Of a stretch of DNA of 64,000 nucleotides, positions 47,240-58,540 are shown piece by piece (the stretch's first letter is position 1; each line of letters opens with the position of its first letter). The translations under genes were made by a program, and so were the position numbers. The DNA is from Cellulomonas cellasea. Lineage in GTDB: Bacteria; Actinomycetota; Actinomycetes; Actinomycetales; Cellulomonadaceae. The notes under the pieces were generated by a model. That model searched no databases and had not been told where the DNA came from. It worked only from the letters and a program-made list of their open reading frames with translations. The DNA is taken from assembly GCF_030372105.1 (NCBI RefSeq), contig NZ_JAUDBQ010000011.1, forward strand, positions 1 through 64,000, given 5' to 3'.

Positions 47240-47294
47240 TCCTCGGGCTACCGGCGTCCTCCGGCTACAGCAGCGTCCTCGGGTTACAGCAGCG
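47240..47294. repeat. Imperfect 19-base tandem repeats between treZ and zapE ends
   Basis: Three units of about 19 bases (TCCTCGGGCTAC... type) at 47240-47256, 47257-47275 and 47276-47294. The last two differ at 2 of 19 positions. On the minus strand each unit carries a stop triplet, and the zapE stop (47284-47286) lies inside the last. Confidence 0.7.
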
Positions 47295-48318
47295 CGCGGC
47301 CGGCCTCGGCCAGCGAACCGAGCCGTGACAGGGCGCGGTGGTACTTCTTGCGGTAGCCGCCGCTGAGCATCTCCGGGGTGAACAGCTGCTCGGCCCCGCC
47401 GCCGCCGAGCAGCACGGGCACGTCCCGGTCGTAGAGGCGGTCCACGAGCACGACGAGGCGCAGTGCCACGTCCTGCGCCTGCACGGGGCCGACGCCGGTG
47501 ACGGCGACCAGCCGCACGCCGTCGAGCAGCGCGCCGTAGCGGCTGGGGTGCACGGTGGCGAGGTGGGCCACGAGGCCGGCGAACTCGTCGAGGGTGGCCC
47601 CGGGCTCCGAGGCGGCGGCCCGACGCACCTCGGCGTCGGTCAGGCCGGGGCCGCCGGTGGACAGGGCACGGTGGCGGTAGTCCTCGCCGTCGACGCGCAG
47701 CACCTCGAACCGGTCGGCCAAGGCCTGGATCTCGCGCAGGAAGTCGTCGGCGGCGAACCGCCCCTCGCCCAACGATCCCGGCAGCGTGTTGGAGGTGGCC
47801 GCCAGCGCGACGCCCCGGTCGGCGAGCTCGCGCAACAGCCGGGCCATGAGCACCGTGTCGCCCGGGTCGTCGAGCTCGAACTCGTCGATGCACACCAGGC
47901 GCCGCTTGGCGAGCGCCTCGACCGTGGGCAGGAACCCCAGGGCGCCCACGAGGTTCGTGTACTCCACGAAGGTGCCGTACGCGGTCGGCCCGCCCACGGC
48001 GTGCGCGAGCGAGGCCAGGAGGTGGGTCTTGCCGACGCCGAAGCCGCCGTCCAGGTAGACCGCCGGCGGGGCGCTGGCCCTGCGGCGCCGCCACCAGGAG
48101 CCGGCGCGGGCGCCGGTGAGCTCGTCGGCGACGTCGCGCAGCCGGTCGAGGGCGGCCTGCTGGCTGGGGTGGCCGGCGTCGGGGCGGTAGGTGGCGAAGG
48201 ACTCGTCGGCGAAGTGGCGCGGGGGCACGAGCTCGGCGAGGAGCCTGTCGACGGGGACCTGTGGCCGGCGTGCCACGAGGCTCGCCGGCTGGGTGGCGGG
48301 GGCGTCCGTCGCTGTCAC
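47284..48318 (-). CDS. zapE: AFG1/ZapE-family ATPase
   Basis: A 344-residue P-loop ATPase. Walker A is GGFGVGKT (91-98), with Walker B LVCIDEFELDDPGD, sensor ATSNTLP and the C-terminal arginine region. ZapE in E. coli acts at the Z-ring under stress, and the mitochondrial homologue AFG1 acts on membrane proteins. The actinobacterial role is not established. GTG 48318 is chosen; an in-frame upstream reading to 48366 is unlikely. The gene converges with treZ. Confidence 0.9.
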   Translation of the reverse strand: MTATDAPATQPASLVARRPQVPVDRLLAELVPPRHFADESFATYRPDAGHPSQQAALDRLRDVADELTGARAGSWWRRRRASAPPAVYLDGGFGVGKTHLLASLAHAVGGPTAYGTFVEYTNLVGALGFLPTVEALAKRRLVCIDEFELDDPGDTVLMARLLRELADRGVALAATSNTLPGSLGEGRFAADDFLREIQALADRFEVLRVDGEDYRHRALSTGGPGLTDAEVRRAAASEPGATLDEFAGLVAHLATVHPSRYGALLDGVRLVAVTGVGPVQAQDVALRLVVLVDRLYDRDVPVLLGGGGAEQLFTPEMLSGGYRKKYHRALSRLGSLAEAGRALL

Positions 48319-48493
48319 GAGCGCTGAGCCTACGGGGGACGGCGGGACGCGCGAGCCAGCGCCCACCCGGAGCCGGGTGCGGCGCCGCGACGGCCACAGG
48401 GGCCGGGCCAGGCGTGTCGTCCCGGCAGCCGGGCGCCTGGTCTCACGATGCGGTCACGGGCTGCCATCTGCCGCCTGGCTCTGTCAGCCTCAT
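48319..48493 (+). promoter_or_regulatory. Promoter region of the sulfur operon
   Basis: 175 bases between zapE (minus) and the leader peptide (plus). It should hold divergent promoters for both. I find no clear consensus elements. There is no ribosome-binding site in front of the leader ATG at 48494, so its mRNA could be leaderless or poorly initiated. Confidence 0.35.
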
Positions 48494-48598
48494 ATGGTGC
48501 ATTCGTCCCTGTGTGTCCCGCAGCGCCGCCTTCGTGGCGACGCTGCGGCGTGCTGTCGGGCCCTGTGCTGTCTGGGCGTCTGCCCCCGGAGCGCGTGA
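48494..48598 (+). CDS. Cysteine-rich leader peptide of the sulfur operon
   Basis: A 34-codon open frame from ATG 48494 to TGA 48596. It holds six Cys (positions 7, 20, 21, 25, 26 and 30), including two Cys-Cys pairs, in a genome where Cys is rare. It ends 96 bases before the sulfite reductase start. Mycobacteria are known to carry cysteine-rich leader frames ahead of sulfur-assimilation genes, where ribosome progress reports cysteine supply; this fits the same logic. Translation of the frame is inferred, not shown. Confidence 0.7.
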   Translation: MVHSSLCVPQRRLRGDAAACCRALCCLGVCPRSA

Positions 48599-48602
48599 CT
48601 CG

Positions 48603-48660
48603 CTCGTCCCTGTTGTCGGGCGCGCGGCGCCCGCACCGCCACCCACGGGTGGCCGACGAG
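48603..48660 (+). promoter_or_regulatory. Stacked hairpins after the cysteine leader
   Basis: Between the leader stop and the sulfite reductase ribosome-binding site are CGGGCG/CGCCCG (48617-48622 with 48628-48633) and GCCACCC/GGGTGGC (48638-48644 with 48647-48653). CTCGTC (48603-48608) also pairs with GACGAG (48655-48660) across both. A ribosome stalled in the leader could choose between such folds. Folding energies were not computed. Confidence 0.45.
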
Positions 48661-48694
48661 CCTGCACGTCCTCGAACCCCGGAGGTGGCGCCAG

Positions 48695-50353
48695 ATGGCG
48701 CAGACACGGATCGCCCCACCGGCGACCAGAGACGAGGGCCAGTGGGCCTTCGGCTCGCATGAGCCCCAGAACGCCAACGAGCGGTTCAAGCAGGAGGACG
48801 ACGGGCTCAACGTCCGCCGCCGCATCGAGCAGGTGTACTCCCAGCAGGGCTTCGCCTCGATCTCCCCCGACGACCTGCGCGGGCGGATGCGCTGGTGGGG
48901 CCTGTACACCCAGCGCCGGCCGGGCATCGACGGCGGCCGCACCGCCACGTTGGAGCCGCATGAGCTCGACGACGAGTACTTCATGCTGCGGGTCCGCTGC
49001 GACGGCGGCGCGCTGACCACCGAGCAGCTTCGGACCATCGCGGAGATCTCCCTCGAGCACGCGCGCGGCACCGCGGACATCACCGACCGGCAGAACTTGC
49101 AGCTGCACTGGGTGCGCATCGAGGATGTGCCGGCCATCTGGCGCCGGCTGGAGGCTGTGGGGCTCAGCACCCAGGAGGCGTGCGGGGACACCCCCCGCGT
49201 GATCCTCGGCTCCCCCGTGGCGGGGGTGGCCGCCGACGAGATCATCGACGGCACCCCCGCGGTCGAGGCCGTGAGCGCCCGTTTCGTGGGGAACCCGGAG
49301 TTCTCCAACCTGCCGCGCAAGTTCAAGACGGCCATCAGCGGCTCCCCGCACCAGGACGTGGCCCACGAGATCAACGACGTGTCCTTCGTCGGCGTGCTGC
49401 ACCCCGAGCTCGGCCCCGGCTTCGACCTGTGGGTGGGCGGCGGGCTGTCCACGAACCCCCGGCTCGCGGTCCGCCTGGGCGCCTTCGTCACCCTGGAGCA
49501 GATCCCCGACGTGTGGGCGGGAGTCGCCGGGATCTTCCGGGACTACGGCTACCGCCGCCTGCGCTCGCGGGCGCGCCTGAAGTTCCTCGTCGCCGACTGG
49601 GGCCCCGAGGTGTTCCGCCAGGTGCTGGAGGGCGAGTACCTGGACTACACGCTGCCCGACGGCCCCGCCCCGCCTCCGCCGCCCTTCGCACGGCGCGACC
49701 ACGTGGGCGTGCACCCGCAGAACGACGGCCGGTTCTACGTCGGCGCCGCGCCGCTCGTCGGACGCACCCCCGGCGCCGTGCTCGCCGCCGTGGCCGACCT
49801 CGCCGAGTTGTGCGGGTCCACCCGGGTGCGGCTCACCGCCGAGCAGAAGATCGTCGTCCTCGACGTCGCCGCCGACCAGGTCGACCCGCTCGTCGAGGGC
49901 CTGGAGCGCCTCGGCCTCCTGGTGCGCGGGGCGTCCACGTTCCGGCGCGGCACCATGGCGTGCACCGGCATCGAGTTCTGCAAGCTCGCCATCGTCGAGA
50001 CGAAGGCCCGCGGCGCCGAGCTCGTCGCCAGCCTCGACGAGCGGCTGCCCACGTTCGACCATCCCCTGACCATCAACCTCAACGGCTGCCCGAACTCCTG
50101 CGCCCGCATCCAAGTCGCCGACATCGGCCTCAAGGGCGCGCTCGCGGGCGGCGAGGACGGGTACCAGGTGCACCTCGGGGGCGGGCTGGGGCTCACCAGC
50201 GGCATGGGCCGCACACTGCGCGGCCTGCGGGTGCCCGCCGAGGAGCTCGCCGACTACGTCGAGCGCGTGGCGCGGCGCTTCGACGCCCAACGCCACGAGG
50301 ACGAGCTCTTCGCGCAGTGGGCCCTGCGCGCCGACGACGAGGACCTGCGATGA
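48695..50353 (+). CDS. cysI: Assimilatory sulfite reductase (ferredoxin-type nitrite/sulfite reductase family)
   Basis: A 552-residue siroheme/4Fe-4S enzyme that reduces sulfite to sulfide. The cluster-siroheme Cys residues are Cys423, Cys429, Cys465 and Cys469 (TGIEFC and NGCPNSC). It has the tandem ferredoxin-like and siroheme domains of mycobacterial NirA/SirA. GGAGG at 48681-48685 precedes ATG 48695. It is the first large gene of the operon, and the siroheme synthase lies downstream. Its place ahead of cysH-D-N makes sulfite, not nitrite, the likely substrate. Confidence 0.95.
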   Translation: MAQTRIAPPATRDEGQWAFGSHEPQNANERFKQEDDGLNVRRRIEQVYSQQGFASISPDDLRGRMRWWGLYTQRRPGIDGGRTATLEPHELDDEYFMLRVRCDGGALTTEQLRTIAEISLEHARGTADITDRQNLQLHWVRIEDVPAIWRRLEAVGLSTQEACGDTPRVILGSPVAGVAADEIIDGTPAVEAVSARFVGNPEFSNLPRKFKTAISGSPHQDVAHEINDVSFVGVLHPELGPGFDLWVGGGLSTNPRLAVRLGAFVTLEQIPDVWAGVAGIFRDYGYRRLRSRARLKFLVADWGPEVFRQVLEGEYLDYTLPDGPAPPPPPFARRDHVGVHPQNDGRFYVGAAPLVGRTPGAVLAAVADLAELCGSTRVRLTAEQKIVVLDVAADQVDPLVEGLERLGLLVRGASTFRRGTMACTGIEFCKLAIVETKARGAELVASLDERLPTFDHPLTINLNGCPNSCARIQVADIGLKGALAGGEDGYQVHLGGGLGLTSGMGRTLRGLRVPAEELADYVERVARRFDAQRHEDELFAQWALRADDEDLR

Positions 50354-50514
50354 GCACCGGCCTGGACGCGGGCCAGCGGGCCGTGCCGTACTACTGCCCG
50401 TTCTGCGCCGGCGAGGACCTGCGCCCGGCCGGCGAGCGGCACGGCGAGTGGGAGTGCCGCACGTGCGCGCGCGTCTTCGCGGTGCGCTTCGTCGCCTTGG
50501 CGGTGGGCCGATGA
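50350..50514 (+). CDS. cysX: CysX-like small CxxC/CxxC protein
   Basis: A 54-residue protein with Cys16/Cys19 and Cys36/Cys39, a zinc-ribbon or rubredoxin-like arrangement. It matches in place and type the small CysX of Corynebacterium glutamicum (cysI-X-H-D-N order), thought to assist sulfite reductase, perhaps as electron carrier. ATG 50350 overlaps the cysI stop, and its own stop overlaps the cysH start, each by 4 bases. It is short enough to be missed by routine gene finding. Confidence 0.85.
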   Translation: MSTGLDAGQRAVPYYCPFCAGEDLRPAGERHGEWECRTCARVFAVRFVALAVGR

Positions 50515-51236
50515 GCGCCGCCACGCCACCCTCGGCAACGGGCGCGCCGGACACTGCCGCGCTGCGCGACACGGCCCTCACCGCGGGCGCAGAGCTCGAG
50601 GGCGCCCACCCCCTCGACGTGCTCGCCTGGGCGCATGCGGCCTTCGGCGCAGGGCTGGTCGTCGCCTCGTCGATGGCCGACGAGGTGCTGGTGCACCTCG
50701 CGTCGCGGGCCGCGCCCGGCGTGGACGTGCTGTTCATCGACACGGGCTACCACTTCGCCGAGACGATCGGCACCCGCGACGCGTTCGCGGCGACCGCGCC
50801 GATCACTGTGCGCACCGTCGTGCCGCGGCAGACCGTCGCCGAGCAGGACGCCGAGCACGGCGCCCGCCTGCACGAGCGACGACCCGACCTGTGCTGCGCC
50901 CTGCGCAAGGTGGAGCCGCTCGAGCGCGGACTGCTCCCCTACCGGGCGTGGGTGACGGGCATGCGCCGTGAGGACGCGCCGACCCGCACCGACATCCCGG
51001 TGGTCGGCTGGGACGAGCGCCGATCCAAGGTGAAGCTCAACCCGCTCGCGGCCTGGACGCAGGACGACGTCGACGCCTACGCCGCCGAGCACCAGGTGCT
51101 GCTCAACCCCCTGCGGCAGATCGGGTACACGTCCATCGGCTGCGCGCCGTGCACCAGGGCGGTGGCGCCCGGCGAGGACGCCCGCGCCGGGCGATGGTCA
51201 GGCCACGAGAAGACGGAATGCGGGTTGCACCTATGA
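50511..51236 (+). CDS. cysH: Adenylylsulfate (APS) reductase
   Basis: A 241-residue enzyme that reduces activated sulfate to sulfite. The 4Fe-4S Cys residues Cys128/Cys129 and Cys211/Cys214 mark it as APS-type rather than PAPS-type, and the catalytic Cys237 lies in ECGLH. The nucleotide loop has SSMADEVL. ATG 50511 overlaps the cysX stop. Because APS is used directly, no APS kinase is needed, and none is present in the window. Confidence 0.96.
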   Translation: MSAATPPSATGAPDTAALRDTALTAGAELEGAHPLDVLAWAHAAFGAGLVVASSMADEVLVHLASRAAPGVDVLFIDTGYHFAETIGTRDAFAATAPITVRTVVPRQTVAEQDAEHGARLHERRPDLCCALRKVEPLERGLLPYRAWVTGMRREDAPTRTDIPVVGWDERRSKVKLNPLAAWTQDDVDAYAAEHQVLLNPLRQIGYTSIGCAPCTRAVAPGEDARAGRWSGHEKTECGLHL

Positions 51237-52186
51237 CGTCCACGACATCCATCCCGACGGCCCCGGCGCCCCCGGCTGCGGCGAGGGCCCCACACGCCCT
51301 GAGCCAGCTCGACGTGCTCGAGTCCGAGGCCGTGCACATCTTCCGCGAGGTCGCCGGCGAGCTCGAGCGCCCCGTGCTGCTGTTCAGCGGCGGCAAGGAC
51401 TCCATCGTCATGCTGCACCTGGCCCGGAAGGCGTTCTGGCCGGCGCCCGTGCCCTTCCCCGTCATGCACGTCGACACCGGCCACAACTTCCCCGAGGTCA
51501 TCGCCTACCGCGACGACACCGTCGCCCAGCACCGCCTGCGGCTGGTCGTCGCGAGCGTGCAGGAGGCGATCGACTCCAGCCGGGTGCGCGAGCTGCCCGG
51601 CGGGTCCCGCAACCCCCTGCAGACCGTCCCGCTGCTCGACGCCATCACCACCCACCGCTTCGACGCGGTGTTCGGCGGCGGCCGGCGCGACGAGGAGAAG
51701 GCCCGCGCCAAGGAGCGCGTGTTCAGCCTGCGCGACGCGCTCGGCCAATGGGACCCGCGCCGCCAGCGACCCGAGCTCTGGGACCTGTACAACGGCCGCC
51801 ACAGCCCCGGCGAGCACGTGCGCGTGTTCCCGCTGTCGAACTGGACCGAGCTCGACGTGTGGCGGTACATCGAGCGCGAGCAGATCGAGCTGCCGTCCAT
51901 CTACTACGCGCATGAGCGCGACGTGTTCGCCCGGGACGGCATGTGGCTCACCGCCGGCGACTGGGGCGGCCCGCTCCCCCACGAGCCCGTGGAGCGCCGC
52001 ACCATCCGCTACCGCACCGTCGGCGACATGAGCTGCACCGGCGCCGTCGACTCCACGGCCCGGACCGTCGCGGACGTGATCGTCGAGGTGGCCGCCAGCC
52101 GGCTCACCGAGCGCGGCGCCACCCGGGCCGACGACCGCGCCTCGGAGGCCGCCATGGAGGACCGCAAACGCGAGGGGTATTTCTGA
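51233..52186 (+). CDS. cysD: Sulfate adenylyltransferase small subunit
   Basis: A 317-residue PP-loop ATP sulfurylase subunit that, with CysN, makes APS from sulfate and ATP. The SGGKDS loop is at 52-57, and the family signatures FGGGRRDEEKARAKERVFS and DMSCTGAVDS are intact. ATG 51233 overlaps the cysH stop by 4 bases. It is somewhat longer than E. coli CysD at the N-terminus, where about 20 residues are Ala/Pro-rich. Confidence 0.97.
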   Translation: MTSTTSIPTAPAPPAAARAPHALSQLDVLESEAVHIFREVAGELERPVLLFSGGKDSIVMLHLARKAFWPAPVPFPVMHVDTGHNFPEVIAYRDDTVAQHRLRLVVASVQEAIDSSRVRELPGGSRNPLQTVPLLDAITTHRFDAVFGGGRRDEEKARAKERVFSLRDALGQWDPRRQRPELWDLYNGRHSPGEHVRVFPLSNWTELDVWRYIEREQIELPSIYYAHERDVFARDGMWLTAGDWGGPLPHEPVERRTIRYRTVGDMSCTGAVDSTARTVADVIVEVAASRLTERGATRADDRASEAAMEDRKREGYF

Positions 52187-53544
52187 TGGGCACGCAGACC
52201 ACCACCCAGCACGCCCCCAGCCTCCCGGCCCCGCCCGGCGGGCATCGGGAGCGCGACCTGCTGCGCCTGGCCACCGCCGGCTCGGTGGACGACGGCAAGA
52301 GCACCCTCATCGGGCGGCTGCTCTACGACACCAAGTCGGTGCTCGCCGACCAGCTCGCCGCCGTCGAGCGGGCCAGCCACGCCCGCGGCGGGGAGGCCGT
52401 CGACCTGGCGCTCCTCACCGACGGCCTGCGCGCCGAGCGCGAGCAGGGCATCACCATCGACGTCGCCTACCGGTACTTCTCGACCGCCACCCGCGCGTTC
52501 GTGCTCGCCGACACCCCCGGGCACGTGCAGTACACGCGCAACATGGTCACCGGCGCCTCGACCGCCGAGCTCGCCGTCGTCCTCGTCGACGCGCGCCGCG
52601 GCGTGCTCGAGCAGACCCGGCGGCACGCCGCGATCGCGGCGCTGCTGCGCGTGCCGCACCTCGTCCTGGCCGTCAACAAGATGGACCTGGTCGACTACGC
52701 GGAAGACGCCTTCACGGCGATCGCCGACGAGTTCGCCGCCTACGCCGCGCGGCTGGGCGTCACCGGAGTGCGGGCCATCCCAGTCTCGGCGCTCGCGGGC
52801 GACAACGTCGTCGAGCGCTCGGCCCGGATGCCGTGGCACACCGGCCCCACTCTGCTCGAGCACCTGGAGCAGGTCCCCGTGCTGCGCGACGCGGCCGCCG
52901 AGCCGCTGCGCTTCCCTGTGCAGTACGTCATCCGGCCGCGCACCCCGGAGCACCCCGACTACCGCGGCTACGCGGGCCGCATCAGCGCGGGCGCGGTGGC
53001 CGTCGGCGACGAGGTCGTCACGGCGCCGGGGGGCGGGCGCAGCCGGGTGGCGGGCATCGACACGTTCGATGGCCCACTGGACGTGGCCCACGCCCCGCAG
53101 TCCGTGACGCTGCTGCTCGAGGACGACCTCGACGTGGCGCGCGGTGACGTGCTGGTGGCCGCGGACGCGCCGACGACAGTGGGCACGGACCTGCGCGGGA
53201 CGGTGTGCTGGCTCGCGCAGCAGCCGGGCGTGGCTGGCACGCGGGTGCTGGTCCGCACCGGGACGCGCACGGTGCGCGGCGTGCTGCAGGAGGTCGGCGC
53301 GCGCTTCGACGTCGACACTCTCGAGTTGGAGCCCTCGTCGGGCTCGCTAACCCTCAACGCGATCGGGACCGTGCGGGTGCTCCTCGCCGAGCCGGTGCTG
53401 CTCGACGACTTCGCCGAGCACCGCCGCACCGGCACGTTCCTGCTGGTCGACCCGCTGGACGGGGCCACGCTCGCGGCGGGGATGGTGGGCCGCTCGCCCT
53501 TGGCGGACGCCGTCGAGCTGTCGGGGCGATGTCGGGAGCAGTGA
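52186..53544 (+). CDS. cysN: Sulfate adenylyltransferase large subunit (GTPase)
   Basis: A 452-residue GTPase that drives APS synthesis with CysD. The P-loop GSVDDGKST is at 32-40, DTPGH and NKMD follow, and two beta-barrel domains complete the protein. It has no fused APS kinase (the CysNC form is longer), which agrees with an APS-type CysH. ATG 52186 shares one base with the cysD stop (TGATG). A 36-base gap separates it from the transporter genes. Confidence 0.97.
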   Translation: MGTQTTTQHAPSLPAPPGGHRERDLLRLATAGSVDDGKSTLIGRLLYDTKSVLADQLAAVERASHARGGEAVDLALLTDGLRAEREQGITIDVAYRYFSTATRAFVLADTPGHVQYTRNMVTGASTAELAVVLVDARRGVLEQTRRHAAIAALLRVPHLVLAVNKMDLVDYAEDAFTAIADEFAAYAARLGVTGVRAIPVSALAGDNVVERSARMPWHTGPTLLEHLEQVPVLRDAAAEPLRFPVQYVIRPRTPEHPDYRGYAGRISAGAVAVGDEVVTAPGGGRSRVAGIDTFDGPLDVAHAPQSVTLLLEDDLDVARGDVLVAADAPTTVGTDLRGTVCWLAQQPGVAGTRVLVRTGTRTVRGVLQEVGARFDVDTLELEPSSGSLTLNAIGTVRVLLAEPVLLDDFAEHRRTGTFLLVDPLDGATLAAGMVGRSPLADAVELSGRCREQ

Positions 53545-53580
53545 CCTGCTCCCACATCCATGCCCTCGAGAGGACCTGAC

Positions 53581-54705
53581 ATGCCCACGACCCCGCACGC
53601 CCGCACCCGAGCCCTCCGCCCCAGAGCCCGCCGCACCGCGCTCTCCGCAGTCCTGATCGCCTCGGCCGCCGCGCTGGCCGGCGCCTGCGCGGCACTCGAC
53701 ACCCCAGCCGACCAGGGCGCCGAGGCCGCCGCCACGAGCGGTGAGGCCACCGAGCTGCGCCTGGGCTACTTCGCGAACATCACCCACGCGATCCCCCTGA
53801 TCGGGGTGGCCGACGGGACGTACGCCGAGGCGCTGGGCGACACCACGCTCACCACCGAGATCTTCAACGCCGGCCCGGCGGCGGTGGAGGCCCTGTTCGC
53901 CGATGGGCTGGACGCGACGTACATCGGCCCGAACCCGGCCATCAACGCGTTCGCCAAATCTGACGGGGAGGCGGTGCGGATCATCGCCGGCGCGACCTCC
54001 GGCGGCGCCCAACTGGTGGTGCGGGAGGGCATCGACTCCGTCGAGGACCTGCGCGGCGCGACGCTCGCCACTCCGCAGGTCGGCAACACCCAGGATGTGG
54101 CGCTGCGCGCCTGGCTGCTGGAGAACGGCCTGCGGACGTCGGTGACGGGCGGCGAGAACGACGTGCTGATCGCCCCGCAGGAGAACGCCCAGACGCTCGA
54201 CCTGTTCAAGCAGGGCTCACTCGACGGCGCCTGGATTCCGGAGCCCTGGGCGTCGCGCCTGGTGGTCGAGGGCGGGGCGAAGGTGCTGCTCGACGAGAAG
54301 GAGCTGTGGCCGGACGGCGACTTCGTCACCACGCACCTCATCGTGCGCACCGAGTTCCTGGAGCAGCACCCCGAGACGGTCGCCAAGCTGCTCGAGGCGC
54401 ATGTGTCCACCGGCGAGTGGATCGCCGAGCACGACCAGGAGGCGGCGCAGGCGGCCAACACCGCCATCGAGTCGCTCACCAGCAAGAAGCTCGGCGACGA
54501 CGTGCTGCTGCGCGCCTGGTCGAACCTGCGCCCCACGAACGACCCGGTGGCGGGGTCCCTGCAGACGTCGGCCGACCATGCGGCCGAGGTCGGTGTCTCG
54601 GACAAGGTCGACCTGAAGGGCATCTACGTCCTCGGCCCGCTCAACGCGATCCTCGCCGAGCGCGGGCAGGAGCCCGTCTCGGCCGCGGGGCTCGGGACGG
54701 AATGA
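53581..54705 (+). CDS. ABC transporter substrate-binding lipoprotein, sulfonate type
   Basis: A 374-residue lipid-anchored receptor of the SsuA/TauA/NMT1-like family. The lipobox is LAGAC (Cys36). The binding domain has LRLGYFANITHAIPLIG and TYIGPNPAINAFAKSDG. ATG 53581 has a GAGAGGA run upstream. It lies in the sulfur operon, so the ligand is probably an organosulfonate or sulfate ester. The family also takes up other anions, and no desulfonating monooxygenase is in the window, so sulfate itself is possible. Confidence 0.9.
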   Translation: MPTTPHARTRALRPRARRTALSAVLIASAAALAGACAALDTPADQGAEAAATSGEATELRLGYFANITHAIPLIGVADGTYAEALGDTTLTTEIFNAGPAAVEALFADGLDATYIGPNPAINAFAKSDGEAVRIIAGATSGGAQLVVREGIDSVEDLRGATLATPQVGNTQDVALRAWLLENGLRTSVTGGENDVLIAPQENAQTLDLFKQGSLDGAWIPEPWASRLVVEGGAKVLLDEKELWPDGDFVTTHLIVRTEFLEQHPETVAKLLEAHVSTGEWIAEHDQEAAQAANTAIESLTSKKLGDDVLLRAWSNLRPTNDPVAGSLQTSADHAAEVGVSDKVDLKGIYVLGPLNAILAERGQEPVSAAGLGTE

Positions 54706-55508
54706 GCGTGCGCGAGGTCCAGGCGCCCACCCTCGCCCCGGCGCGTCCTGCGCCGGGGCGCCCGGCCCGGCCCCCGGTGCGGCTCACCCAGGTGAGCCAC
54801 CACTTCGGCGACACCACGCGGCCACCGGTGCTCGACCGCATCGACCTGGTCGTGGAGCCCGGCGAGTTCGTGTGCCTGCTCGGGGCGTCCGGCTGCGGGA
54901 AGTCCACCCTGCTCTCCCTCATCGCGGGGCTCGACTCCCCCACCGGGGGGACGGTGGAGGTGGGCGCCCGCCGCCCGGCGCTGATGTTCCAGGAGCCCGC
55001 GCTCTACCCGTGGCTCAGCGCCGGGCGGAACATCGAGCTCGCCCTGCGGCTGCGGGGCGTGCCACGCGCCGCGCGCCGCGCGGAGGCCGAGCGGCTACTG
55101 AGCCTCGTGCACCTGGACGGGGCCCACGCCCGGCGGGTGCACGAGCTGTCCGGGGGCATGCGCCAACGCGTGGCCCTCGCCCGCGCCCTGGCGCAGGAGG
55201 GCGAGGTGCTGCTCATGGACGAGCCCTTCGCCGCCCTCGACGCCATCACCCGCGACGTCATGCACTCCGAGCTCACCCGGATCTGGCAGGAGACGGGCCG
55301 GTCGGTCGTGTTCGTCACCCACAACGTGCGCGAGGCCGTGCGGCTCGGGCAGCGGGTCGTGCTGCTGTCCTCGCGTCCCGGCCGGATCGTGCGGGAGTGG
55401 ACGGTGCCGATCCCGCAGCCGCGCCGCATCGAGGACCACGCCGTGGCCGAGCTCTCCGTGGAGATCACGGACCACCTGCGAGCGGAGATCGCCAGCCATG
55501 CCCGCTGA
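54702..55508 (+). CDS. ABC transporter ATPase, sulfonate type
   Basis: A 268-residue SsuB/TauB-like ATPase. Walker A GASGCGKST, the Q-loop MFQEPALYPW, signature [16 protein letters not shown] and Walker B LLMDEPFAALD are intact. It begins with a Pro/Arg-rich 30-residue extension. ATG 54702 overlaps the receptor stop by 4 bases, and the permease start lies 11 bases inside its 3' end. Confidence 0.94.
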   Translation: MSVREVQAPTLAPARPAPGRPARPPVRLTQVSHHFGDTTRPPVLDRIDLVVEPGEFVCLLGASGCGKSTLLSLIAGLDSPTGGTVEVGARRPALMFQEPALYPWLSAGRNIELALRLRGVPRAARRAEAERLLSLVHLDGAHARRVHELSGGMRQRVALARALAQEGEVLLMDEPFAALDAITRDVMHSELTRIWQETGRSVVFVTHNVREAVRLGQRVVLLSSRPGRIVREWTVPIPQPRRIEDHAVAELSVEITDHLRAEIASHAR

Positions 55509-56418
55509 CCCGTCCACCTCCACCACTACGCCGCCGGCGCCGGGCTCGCCGGCCACCGTCGCGCGCGATCTCGAAGCGGGTCTCGACGCCCTGGAGACAG
55601 CCGTCGAGGCCACTCGCACGCCGTGGTGGGCCGCCGCCTGGCGCGCCTTCTGGCCCACCGCCGCGGCCCTCCTCGTCCTGCTCGGCGCCTGGCAGGTCCT
55701 CGCGGCGTCCGGGATCAAGCCCTCCTACGCGCTGCCACGACCCCTCGACGTGTGGCACACCCTCGTCGAGGCGACCCAGGACGGGTCCGCGATCCGGGCG
55801 GCCAGCCTGAGCGTGCAGCGCGGCGGCCTCGGCTTCCTGGCGTCGGTGGTCGTCGGGGTCGCCCTCGGCACCGCGATGGCCACCCTGCCGTTGCTGCGCC
55901 GCGCTCTCGGCCCCCTCATCACCGGCCTGCAGTCGCTGCCGTCCATCGCGTGGGTGCCGGCCGCGATCATCTGGTTCCAGCTCAGCAACGCCGCCATCTT
56001 CACGGTGGTGCTGCTGGGCGCCGTGCCCTCCATCGTGAACGGCCTGCTCGCGGGGGTCGACCAGGTGCCGCCGCTGTACCTGCGCGTGGGCCGGGTGCTG
56101 GGCGCCAGCGGGTGGAGCCGCATCCGCCACGTCCTGCTCCCCGCCGCGCTGCCGGGCTTCCTGGGCGGCCTCAAGCAGGGCTGGGCGTTCGCGTGGCGCT
56201 CCCTCATGGCCGCCGAGCTCATCACCAACACCCCGCGCCTGGGCGCCGGGCTCGGCCAGCTCCTGAACCTGGGCCGCGACACCAGTGACATGTCACTGGT
56301 CATCGCTGCCATCCTGTTGATCTTCGCGGTGGGCATCCTCATCGAGCTCGCCGTGTTCACCCCGCTGGAGCGTCGCATCCTGCACGCCCGCGGCCTGACC
56401 GGTCTGAGCGGAGGCTGA
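55498..56418 (+). CDS. ABC transporter permease, sulfonate type
   Basis: A 306-residue inner-membrane permease with about six transmembrane helices. The coupling loop with GRVLGASGWSRIRHVLLPAALP and the AWRSLMAAELI segment are typical of SsuC/TauC. The N-terminal 50 residues are polar. ATG 55498 overlaps the ATPase by 11 bases. It completes the receptor-ATPase-permease set inside the sulfur operon. Confidence 0.94.
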   Translation: MPADPSTSTTTPPAPGSPATVARDLEAGLDALETAVEATRTPWWAAAWRAFWPTAAALLVLLGAWQVLAASGIKPSYALPRPLDVWHTLVEATQDGSAIRAASLSVQRGGLGFLASVVVGVALGTAMATLPLLRRALGPLITGLQSLPSIAWVPAAIIWFQLSNAAIFTVVLLGAVPSIVNGLLAGVDQVPPLYLRVGRVLGASGWSRIRHVLLPAALPGFLGGLKQGWAFAWRSLMAAELITNTPRLGAGLGQLLNLGRDTSDMSLVIAAILLIFAVGILIELAVFTPLERRILHARGLTGLSGG

Positions 56419-56422
56419 TCCG

Positions 56423-57718
56423 ATGCCCGCACCCGACGATCCCCCGATGCGCCACGCGGTGCTGCTGGACCTGCGCGGCCGTGACGTGCTGGTGGTGGGG
56501 GGCGGCCCGGTGGCCGCGCGCCGCACGGCCACCCTGGTGCAGGAGGGGGCCAGGGTGCGGGTCGTCGCGCCGCAGCTCTGCGAGGACCTCGAAGCCCTCG
56601 CGGCAGCCGGCGCCGTGCGCCACGAGCGCCGCGGCTACCAGCCCGGGGATGTCGCCGGCGCCTGGTTCGTGCACACCGCCACCGGGGACCGCGCCACTGA
56701 CGCGGCCGTCGCCGCCGAGGCCGAGGCGGCCCGCGTGTGGTGCGTGCACGCGGGCGACGCCGCCCGGTCGACCGCCTGGACCCCCGCCGTCGCCCGCGCC
56801 GGGGATGTCACGGTGGCCGTCAGCGCCGGCGGCGACCCCCGCCGTGCCGCCGCCCTGCGCTCCGCCATCTCCACCCTGCTCGACAGCGGCGACCTGCCGC
56901 TGCGCCGCCACCGGCCCAGCCCTGGCCACGTCGCGCTCATCGGCGGCGGCCCCGGCGACCCCGACCTCATCACCGTGCGCGGACGCCGCCTCCTCGCCGA
57001 GGCCGACGTCGTCGTCACCGACCGGCTCGGCCCCCGGGCCCTGCTCGACGGGCTCCCCCACGACGTCGAGGTCATCGAGGCCGGCAAGGCGCCCCATGCG
57101 CACACCCTCACCCAGGCGCAGATCAACGAGCTGCTCGTCGAGCGCGCCACCGCGGGCCAACGCGTCGTGCGCCTCAAGGGCGGCGACCCCTACCTGCTCG
57201 GCCGCGGCGGCGAGGAGGCACTCGCCTGCCGCGACGCCGGCCTCCCCGTCGAGGTCGTCCCCGGGGTCACCAGCGCGTTCGCCGTCCCCGCCGCCGCCGG
57301 CATCCCCGTCACCCACCGCGGCCTCGCCCGCCAGGTCACCGTCGTCTCCGCCCACGACGACGCCACCGACTGGGCGGCCCTCGCCCGCCTCGACGGCACC
57401 CTCGTGCTGCTGATGGGCGTCGCCCAACTCGCCGAGCACACCGCCGCGCTCATCAGCCACGGCCGGAGCCCGCGCACACCCGTGGCCGTCGTCGAGCGCG
57501 GCACCCTCGCCGAGCAGCGCACCACCCTGGGCACACTCGCCGACATCGCGGACCGGGCCACCGCCGGCGGCGTGACGTCTCCCGCCGTGGTGGTGGTCGG
57601 CGAGGTGGTGGCGCTCGCAAGTGAACTGGGCGGCAGCGCGGGCGCACCCGTCGGGGAGCGTGAGGACGCGGGCGAGCCCGTCGACCAGCCCGCTGGCGGC
57701 CCGCCCCCACATCGCTAG
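56423..57718 (+). CDS. cysG: Siroheme synthase (dehydrogenase plus uroporphyrinogen methyltransferase)
   Basis: A 431-residue fusion. Residues about 1-165 are the precorrin-2 dehydrogenase/ferrochelatase-type domain (VVGGGPVAARRTATL), and about 175-400 the S-adenosylmethionine-dependent uroporphyrinogen-III methyltransferase (VALIGGGPGDPDLITVRG, RLKGGDPYLLGRGGEE). It supplies siroheme to the sulfite reductase at the head of the same operon. It starts 4 bases after the permease stop. The C-terminal 30 residues are polar. Confidence 0.95.
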   Translation: MPAPDDPPMRHAVLLDLRGRDVLVVGGGPVAARRTATLVQEGARVRVVAPQLCEDLEALAAAGAVRHERRGYQPGDVAGAWFVHTATGDRATDAAVAAEAEAARVWCVHAGDAARSTAWTPAVARAGDVTVAVSAGGDPRRAAALRSAISTLLDSGDLPLRRHRPSPGHVALIGGGPGDPDLITVRGRRLLAEADVVVTDRLGPRALLDGLPHDVEVIEAGKAPHAHTLTQAQINELLVERATAGQRVVRLKGGDPYLLGRGGEEALACRDAGLPVEVVPGVTSAFAVPAAAGIPVTHRGLARQVTVVSAHDDATDWAALARLDGTLVLLMGVAQLAEHTAALISHGRSPRTPVAVVERGTLAEQRTTLGTLADIADRATAGGVTSPAVVVVGEVVALASELGGSAGAPVGEREDAGEPVDQPAGGPPPHR

Positions 57719-57727
57719 CCTGGCCAG

Positions 57728-58540
57728 ATGCCCGATCCCACGCCCACGCTCGACGTCCTGCTGCCGCTCGACCGGGCGGGCGAACGGCTCCCACCAGCCG
57801 ACGACGAGCCGGCGCTCAGCGCGCTGTACGCCCACCCCCTGCCCTCCTCCGGCGCGTATGTGCGCGCCAACATGGTCTCCACCCTGGACGGCTCGGCCAC
57901 CGGCGCCGACCACGTGTCCGGGTCGATCAACAACCCGGCCGACTTCCGCGCGTTCACCGTGCAGCGGGCGTGGGCCGATGTCGTGCTGATCGGCGCGGGC
58001 ACTGCCCGGGCCGAGCGGTACCGGGCGCTGTCGGTCCCGGCTGGCCTGGCCCCGGCGCGCGCCGCCCGGGGCCAGCGCCCGGAGCTCGAACTGGCCGTGG
58101 TGACAGCGTTCGGGGAGCTGCCCGAGGTCCTGTTCGACTCCCCGCGCGCTCCCCTGATCATCACCGTGGCGGATCGGCCTGGGCTCGACGACCTCCGCCG
58201 GCGTGTGGGCGCCGACAGGGTGATCGTCGCCGGGAGCGGCCGGGTCGATCCCGCTTCCGCGGTCACGCAGCTCGCTGATCGGGGCCTGTGCCGGGTGCTC
58301 GCCGAGGGCGGCCCGCATCTCCTCGCCGAGCTGGTCGCCCGCGGCGTCGTGGACGAGCTCTGCCTGACGACGAGCCCGCTGTTGGTGGGCGGGGACGCCC
58401 CCCGCGTGCTGGCCGGCGCGCCCTGGCTGGCGCCCCCTGTCGACGCCGTCCCGGCGCACCTGTTGCACGCCGACGGGACGCTGCTCGGCAGATGGTTGCT
58501 GAGCGCGCCGTCGGGGCCGCCACTAGGCTCGCAGCCGTGA
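57728..58540 (+). CDS. RibD-C/dihydrofolate-reductase-like pyrimidine reductase family protein
   Basis: A 270-residue NADPH-dependent reductase with the RibD C-terminal fold. The NMVSTLDGSATG substrate region, DVVLIGAGTARAERY and LAEGGPHLLAELV are visible. It resembles Rv2671, a RibD homologue that can reduce dihydrofolate, and lacks a deaminase domain. It follows cysG at 9 bases and overlaps the next gene by 4, so it probably rides on the sulfur operon transcript. True substrate unknown. Confidence 0.85.
   Translation: MPDPTPTLDVLLPLDRAGERLPPADDEPALSALYAHPLPSSGAYVRANMVSTLDGSATGADHVSGSINNPADFRAFTVQRAWADVVLIGAGTARAERYRALSVPAGLAPARAARGQRPELELAVVTAFGELPEVLFDSPRAPLIITVADRPGLDDLRRRVGADRVIVAGSGRVDPASAVTQLADRGLCRVLAEGGPHLLAELVARGVVDELCLTTSPLLVGGDAPRVLAGAPWLAPPVDAVPAHLLHADGTLLGRWLLSAPSGPPLGSQP

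Follow-up and report, generated by a model that had tools for sequence, protein, structure and literature searches.

A conserved cysteine-rich leader frame before the cysI operon of Cellulomonas cellasea as a probable attenuator sensor

In the genome of Cellulomonas cellasea a short open reading frame (ORF) rich in cysteine (Cys) codons stands in front of a cysI-type sulfite reductase gene, which raises the question of whether this frame is translated as a regulatory leader of the sulfur genes behind it. The frame was studied in a stretch of 64,000 nucleotides (nt) of contig NZ_JAUDBQ010000011.1 (positions 1 to 64,000, forward strand), called the window below. We consider it likely that the leader is the sensor of an attenuator that works through the ribosome, responds to cysteine and controls the cysI-H-D-N-ABC-cysG operon (ABC, ATP-binding cassette). 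A first-pass annotation of the same DNA had proposed an attenuator here, and this proposal is supported by the conservation of the frame in 16 of 16 loci, by its Cys codons and by the fixed distance of these codons from the stop; we infer that ribosomes stall on the Cys codons and that cysI responds to cysteine. Another Cys-run leader stands before cysK elsewhere in this genome and was also counted as evidence for the attenuator; the mycobacterial Cys-codon leaders before cys genes may serve as its precedent.

The leader frame and its conservation

The frame and its central part are located as follows.

48497..48598, + strand: Cys-rich leader ORF with GTG start, 33 amino acids, 6 Cys, TGA stop; the GTG is in frame in 16/16 loci
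48551..48583, + strand: Cys codon tract, presumed stall site (TGC TGT, three codons, TGC TGT, three codons, TGC)

Read one codon farther upstream (48494-48598, + strand), the translation has 34 residues with six Cys and two Cys-Cys pairs, and it ends at a TGA located 96 nt before the cysI ATG (48695). This is the 34-codon frame, placed before a sulfite reductase gene, that the first-pass annotation had described, and the translation confirmed its six Cys and both pairs. The peptide matched no Pfam or NCBIfam family.

Through comparison with the remaining frames of the window, we considered whether such a frame may arise by chance in GC-rich intergenic DNA, in which stops are few. The chance set contained the distinct stops closing ATG or GTG frames of 20-60 amino acids in the 64-kb window (n=380; 174 on the + strand and 206 on the - strand). 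Two of these 380 frames had at least six Cys in at most 40 codons, the other one being 37 codons long, and the leader frame alone had two Cys-Cys pairs in addition. When the intergenic region 48367-48694 was shuffled 3000 times with dinucleotides preserved (one strand), frames with at least six Cys appeared in 7 shuffles, and six Cys together with two pairs in none. The 37-codon frame and the seven shuffles speak for a chance origin; the absence of both pairs from all 3000 shuffles, the presence of the frame in 16/16 loci, its fixed start and its fixed Cys-to-stop spacing speak against it, and we give this explanation almost no probability. The earlier claim that the Cys density is unlikely by chance was thus borne out. 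A DNA-pattern search for further leaders (Cys-Cys, three codons, Cys-Cys) returned 54 matches against 63 for the reversed control and was uninformative.

Conservation within Cellulomonadaceae, which the first-pass annotation had named as the check to be made, was then found. The cysI gene was searched in 59 genomes (that of C. cellasea and relatives), matched in 35, and all 35 upstream regions were retrieved. The near set of 16 loci comprised C. cellasea, six genomes of the same genus, one other genus of the family and eight loci of named Cellulomonas, the latter being the nearest named relatives among 80 loci kept (cysI identity 78-82%). A Cys-rich frame was present at the same place upstream of cysI in all 16, with its stop 96-114 nt before cysI. 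Shuffled 300-nt upstream regions of these loci gave a comparable frame on average in 0.67%; the stop interval used for this comparison (-120 to -90) was picked after the loci had been inspected and the loci are related, so the contrast of 16/16 with 0.67% is not a formal P value.

The length of the leader took seven values in the near set, all of them multiples of three, from 84 to 177 nt including the stop (27-58 amino acids). The leader frame contained 5-8 Cys and each of the two other frames 0-4. From the last Cys codon to the stop there were exactly four codons in 16/16 loci. Variation of the peptide among close relatives spared the Cys codons and a short motif at its C-terminal end, and the Cys codons with their position before the stop were the best-conserved part of the leader. 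In the three closest pairs (L002/L003, L006/L007 and L038/L039) both changes in Cys codons were swaps of TGC and TGT, and 8 of the 13 other codon changes altered the residue. A spacing of four codons kept in all loci despite a variable peptide fits ribosome stalling on the Cys codons.

The same data bear on the idea that the leader encodes a functional small Cys-rich protein, for example a metal-binding one, instead of a cis regulator. Small Cys-rich proteins exist, and the Cys pairs of the leader would suit one. Against this, sequence and length vary freely outside the conserved codons, the protein families searched gave no match and the position before cysI is fixed; a small protein therefore appears very improbable, and we retain the attenuator leader as the preferred reading.

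The ATG start at 48494 claimed by the first-pass annotation was not upheld: this ATG was found in 3/16 loci, and the conserved start is the GTG at 48497. Upstream of it lies one further element.

48482..48490, + strand: extended -10-like box TGTCAGCCT, 6 nt before the GTG; it would imply a leaderless transcript from about 48497

A TGnCANCCT-like box was aligned at -15 to -7 from the GTG in the near set, with G-14, A-11, C-8 and T-7 each present in 16/16 loci. Because this conserved box stands 6 nt before the GTG, the leader message is probably leaderless, with its start at or near 48497. Three observations weigh against such a start: the first position of the -10-like box is C and not T in 15/16 loci, a simple sigma-70 promoter scan called no promoter at the leader, and in L005 a GGGGGTG stretch precedes an in-frame ATG two codons on, where a start with a Shine-Dalgarno (SD) sequence is also possible. 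In Streptomyces lividans, according to PMC8079986, 17% of the messages are leaderless and the -10 consensus is TAnnnT.

From the leader to cysI: proposed mechanism and RNA structure

The attenuator may work in the following way. RNA polymerase would start at or near the GTG at 48497 and produce a leaderless message, on whose 5' end ribosomes would load and translate the leader. With ample Cys-tRNA they would clear the Cys codons and be released at the TGA 96 nt before cysI; after their passage the RNA would fold, and cysI would be poorly translated or transcription would terminate. With scarce Cys-tRNA the ribosome would stall on the Cys pairs near the stop and keep the tract open, and cysI and the downstream genes would be expressed. 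The elements predicted between the leader and cysI are given below.

48602..48608 (5' arm) and 48655-48661 (3' arm), + strand: outer stem GCTCGTC/GACGAGC, enclosing both hairpins in the local fold
48617..48633, + strand: hairpin 1, CGGGCGC-gcg-GCGCCCG, beginning 19 nt after the stop, without a run of U (U-tract)
48638..48653, + strand: hairpin 2, GCCACC-cacg-GGTGGC
48681..48686, + strand: SD sequence of cysI, GGAGGT; in the absence of a ribosome, pairing with nucleotides of the leader is predicted

In C. cellasea the region from the SD sequence to +12 was predicted to pair with the leader at a mean probability of 0.90, against a mean of 0.47 for shuffled leaders, 1 of 60 of which reached 0.90. 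The predicted access to the SD sequence and start was 0.07 for free RNA. It rose to 0.33-0.40 when the second Cys pair was masked as if covered by a ribosome, to 0.22-0.24 for a mask at any other Cys codon tried, and to 0.13 for one at the stop. L003, the nearest relative, was similar in pairing (0.91, reached by 0 of 60 shuffles), and its access rose less, from 0.13 to 0.22-0.24 (0.16 with the mask on the stop).

Several results weigh against the attenuator as drawn above, in particular against its output step. The cysI of L003 is 97% alike to that of C. cellasea, so its pairing is not independent support. In the 14 other loci the observed pairing was reached by between 12 and 54 of the 60 shuffled leaders; it was 0.02 in L004 (cysI 91% alike), 0.44 in L008 and 0.49 in L042. 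In most loci a ribosome mask on the Cys codons barely changed the predicted access to the SD sequence. An intrinsic terminator scan found none at the locus, with no U-tract behind the hairpins, and the Rfam scan of the window gave no match. As a general mechanism, direct pairing between the leader tract and the start of cysI was therefore rejected, being no stronger than that of shuffled leaders in 14/16 loci; hiding of the SD sequence by the leader tract is predicted above the level of the shuffles in C. cellasea and L003 only. That the leader tract itself would mask the cysI SD sequence is thus the weakest step of the model. A classical attenuator with an intrinsic terminator, which requires a GC hairpin and a U-tract before cysI, does not fit the locus either, as no U-tract was seen.

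The hairpins recur among the loci. An equivalent of hairpin 1 (7-11 base pairs, beginning 17-24 nt after the stop) was found in 14/16 loci, L008 and L009 being the exceptions, and across loci its sequence was changed and its pairing kept. Hairpin 2 was listed in 10/16 loci; in four more (L039, L040, L042 and L044) the local fold has it as its apical stem. It showed a compensatory change between the sister loci L006 and L007 (CCGCC/GGCGG vs CCGTC/GACGG). The outer stem was present also in L003 and L004, with a similar one in L006 and L007, and not in the remaining loci. The stretch from the leader stop to the SD sequence had a fold energy below the shuffle mean in 16/16 loci (z -0.3 to -3.6).

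These features would suit a variant in which the same sensor has a transcriptional output, namely Rho-dependent or U-less termination at a C-rich stretch and the hairpins, blocked by the stalled ribosome. A C-rich stretch follows the leader stop in many relatives, and Rho has been proposed for the mycobacterial case (in the text available of PMC1262725). On the other side, the stretch is weak in the window itself and a U-tract is lacking. Most z values are weak; the longer stretch, from the leader end to the cysI start, lies below the shuffle mean in 13/16 loci (z -3.1 to +0.5) and is positive in three of the 16. Covariation is also scarce: RNAalifold found both sides changed in 3/27 pairs of alignment A1 (15/16 loci; L004 excluded for a long insert) and in 0/43 pairs of alignment A2 (7 loci), which is weak as a sign of conserved pairing. 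Finally, the hairpins begin 17-24 nt after the stop, where a ribosome positioned on the Cys codons would probably not cover them. We regard a transcriptional output as possible and rather doubtful. Inspection by eye suggested that in some Cellulomonas the arm of hairpin 1 pairs with codons 2-4 of cysI; this idea was dropped, as the pairing is broken in L037 and L042.

Cysteine leaders in other actinobacteria and before cysK

Outside the near set the frames before cysI look different. Among the other 27 cysI-bearing relatives, a Cys-Cys frame (6-60 amino acids; ATG, GTG or TTG start; at most 500 nt upstream of cysI) was found in 12, several of which end in a Cys run at the stop, and an RRHVD-type frame in two. 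In other genera of the family (L018, L021, L022, L023, L026, L028, L030 and L031) a different type of Cys-run frame precedes cysI; several of these contain MTTA and have two to four consecutive Cys at or near their end.

In a class-wide sample, cysI was present in 121/158 genomes, and 100 of the 121 upstream regions were analysed (one of them only 3 nt long, five others shortened). The RRHVD-type frame, whose motif before Cys residues is our own reading of the peptides that match the family models, was found before cysI in 75/100 class loci, in 70/72 further loci (mostly Streptomyces) and in 0/16 loci of the near set, with 7/215 in the reverse-strand control. Cys-Cys frames of 6-60 amino acids occurred in 31/100 class loci by manual count, several of which look like chance, and were scarce (4/72) in the further loci. 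All five RRHVD-type peptides tried matched leader_Ms4527A or cis_reg_atten with an expectation value (E) below 0.001; one reached the cut-off of leader_Ms4527A (NF042936) and three that of cis_reg_atten (NF042934), and the leader_Ms5788A model matched such peptides below its cut-off only. Neither the window leader nor any of four more cysI leaders of the Cellulomonas type matched NF042936 or NF042934 at E up to 10, with the caveat that the HMMER filters may lose weak matches of such short peptides.

Because the RRHVD-type peptides match the models and the Cellulomonas-type leaders match none, cysI carries Cys leaders of seemingly unrelated sequence in different actinobacteria. Since the five tried match no NCBIfam model, leaders of the Cellulomonas type may well be unannotated in genomes.

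In seven loci of one class family (L158, L162, L164, L167, L169, L174 and L177) two frames were seen before cysI. The first is Cys-rich and has CCW at its end (mostly CCPSFxCCW), and farther downstream lies an RRHVD-type frame; these may possibly be two leaders in series.

A differently built Cys-rich frame precedes the first of two cysKM paralogs in 7/7 genomes of the genus (C. cellasea and six others); that of C. cellasea lies outside the window (L128, G000:C12:105311-105376). In all seven the TAG stop of this leader directly abuts AGCGCTGGC, whose complement GCCAGCGCT lies 38-52 nt farther downstream. No Cys-run frame was found before the second cysKM paralog of the seven genomes (L131 to L137). 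The exact repeat AGCGCTGGC...GCCAGCGCT with a gap of 30-60 nt was found in 11/61 family genomes; the reversed-pattern control matched more genomes (21 by manual count), so the repeat count is uninformative by itself. In ten of the 11 repeat loci cysK lay downstream, and a frame containing several Cys ended at the repeat. L273 was the exception; it is a second site in G004, whose cysK copy is L125. A search of four cysK leader loci against Rfam at E up to 1 gave one match, which was below the cut-off and elsewhere in the loci. If a ribosome stalled at the final Cys codons of the cysK leader, it would probably cover one arm of the repeat.

Cys leaders before sulfur genes have been described elsewhere. 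Seliverstov et al. 2005 (PMC1262725) predicted Cys-run leaders that lack terminators in front of cys operons in Mycobacterium and Propionibacterium acnes and in front of cbs in Bifidobacterium longum, and they suggested Rho. As in those candidates, the Cys runs of the Cellulomonas leader are near the stop and a U-tract terminator is lacking; unlike the candidates as given there (PMC1262725), the Cellulomonas loci have recurring hairpins, without U-tract, between leader and cysI. In mycobacteria, small ORFs rich in Cys were reported in 2015 ahead of cysA2 and of nirA/Msmeg_4527 (PMC4633059). The Ms4527A family (NF042936; PMC4633059, legend of Fig 7C) shares with the Cellulomonas leader a short Cys-run frame before nirA/cysI, and, by the passages of that report, the mycobacterial leader is leaderless, as the Cellulomonas one probably is. 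The peptides of the family are of the RRHVD..C type, whereas the five Cellulomonas-type leaders tried match no model and the motif is absent from all 16 near loci. The uORFC-8-2 motif before Rhodobacterales cysS likewise combines upstream tandem Cys codons with RNA structure, and according to the excerpt of PMC8632094 it ends in a U run like an intrinsic terminator, whereas the window leader region has no U run. Work of Canestrari et al. 2020 on mycobacterial Cys leaders is cited in the accessible parts of PMC9031893, PMC9094748 and PMC13236596.

Our literature search, whose coverage excludes most subscription papers, found no description of the Cellulomonas Cys leader among the titles listed, its one Cellulomonas result being a paper on cellulases. 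The novelty expected by the first-pass annotation is partial: the Cellulomonas peptide falls outside the models tried, and Cys leaders before cys operons and nirA were already known (2005, 2015 and NCBIfam).

Leaderless polycysteine short ORFs before Cys-metabolism operons were reportedly tested in Mycobacterium smegmatis by Canestrari et al. in 2020, and the speed of their translation is said to depend on cysteine. The Cellulomonas leader shares with them contiguous Cys codons, a downstream Cys-metabolism operon and, probably, a leaderless start; it differs in its peptide and in the bacterial order, and function was tested in the mycobacterial case, whereas for the Cellulomonas leader it is a prediction from sequence.

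We tentatively suggest, with somewhat less than even confidence, that in Cellulomonas and close kin the widespread RRHVD type is replaced by a leader unrelated to it, with an RNA architecture of its own (a GTG start that is leaderless, four codons from the last Cys to the stop, recurring hairpins without U-tract), which together with the cysK leader forms a small ribosome-driven cysteine regulon. If the attenuator reading is true, ribosome-sensed control of sulfate assimilation would extend beyond mycobacteria to cellulose degraders, whose peptide is different. This would suggest that what selection keeps is the rule of sensing (Cys codons at a constant position ahead of the stop, in front of cysI) and not the peptide. 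The 16 loci are natural variants for a study of how a stall is transmitted without a visible U-tract terminator.

Upstream block and operon genes

The control region and the genes around it contain the following further features.

47284..48366, - strand: divergent zapE-type gene, upstream limit of the control region
48440..48453, + strand: conserved upstream block GTCTCANNATSCGG, from an alignment of 15/16 loci, about 45 nt before the leader start
48695..50353, + strand: cysI-type nitrite/sulfite reductase gene (NCBIfam), first large gene of the operon
50350..50514, + strand: gene between cysI and cysH, encoding a small protein (54 amino acids) with two CxxC motifs; zinc-ribbon matches below cut-off
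50511..57718, + strand: cysH, cysD, cysN, SsuA-type binding protein, ABC ATPase, permease-like gene and cysG
57728-58540: RibD_C-domain reductase gene, 9 nt behind cysG

The block GTCTCANNATSCGG is a possible activator site or promoter element. It had one exact copy in the genome, and a search for genes co-regulated through it was rejected (six copies with one mismatch vs seven for the reversed control). In several relatives a further GTCC...GTCG block was seen upstream of GTCTCANNATSCGG.

The top NCBIfam matches of the cysI-type protein were nitrite/sulfite reductases, none above its curated cut-off, and the name cysI is therefore given from the operon context. The family matches of the permease-like gene also stayed below their cut-offs, and the cysG product is a CysG-type siroheme synthase. 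On the whole, the family matches agree with the operon order first proposed (cysI-X-H-D-N-ABC-cysG). The RibD_C gene comes next and is possibly the last gene of the same transcript as cysG.
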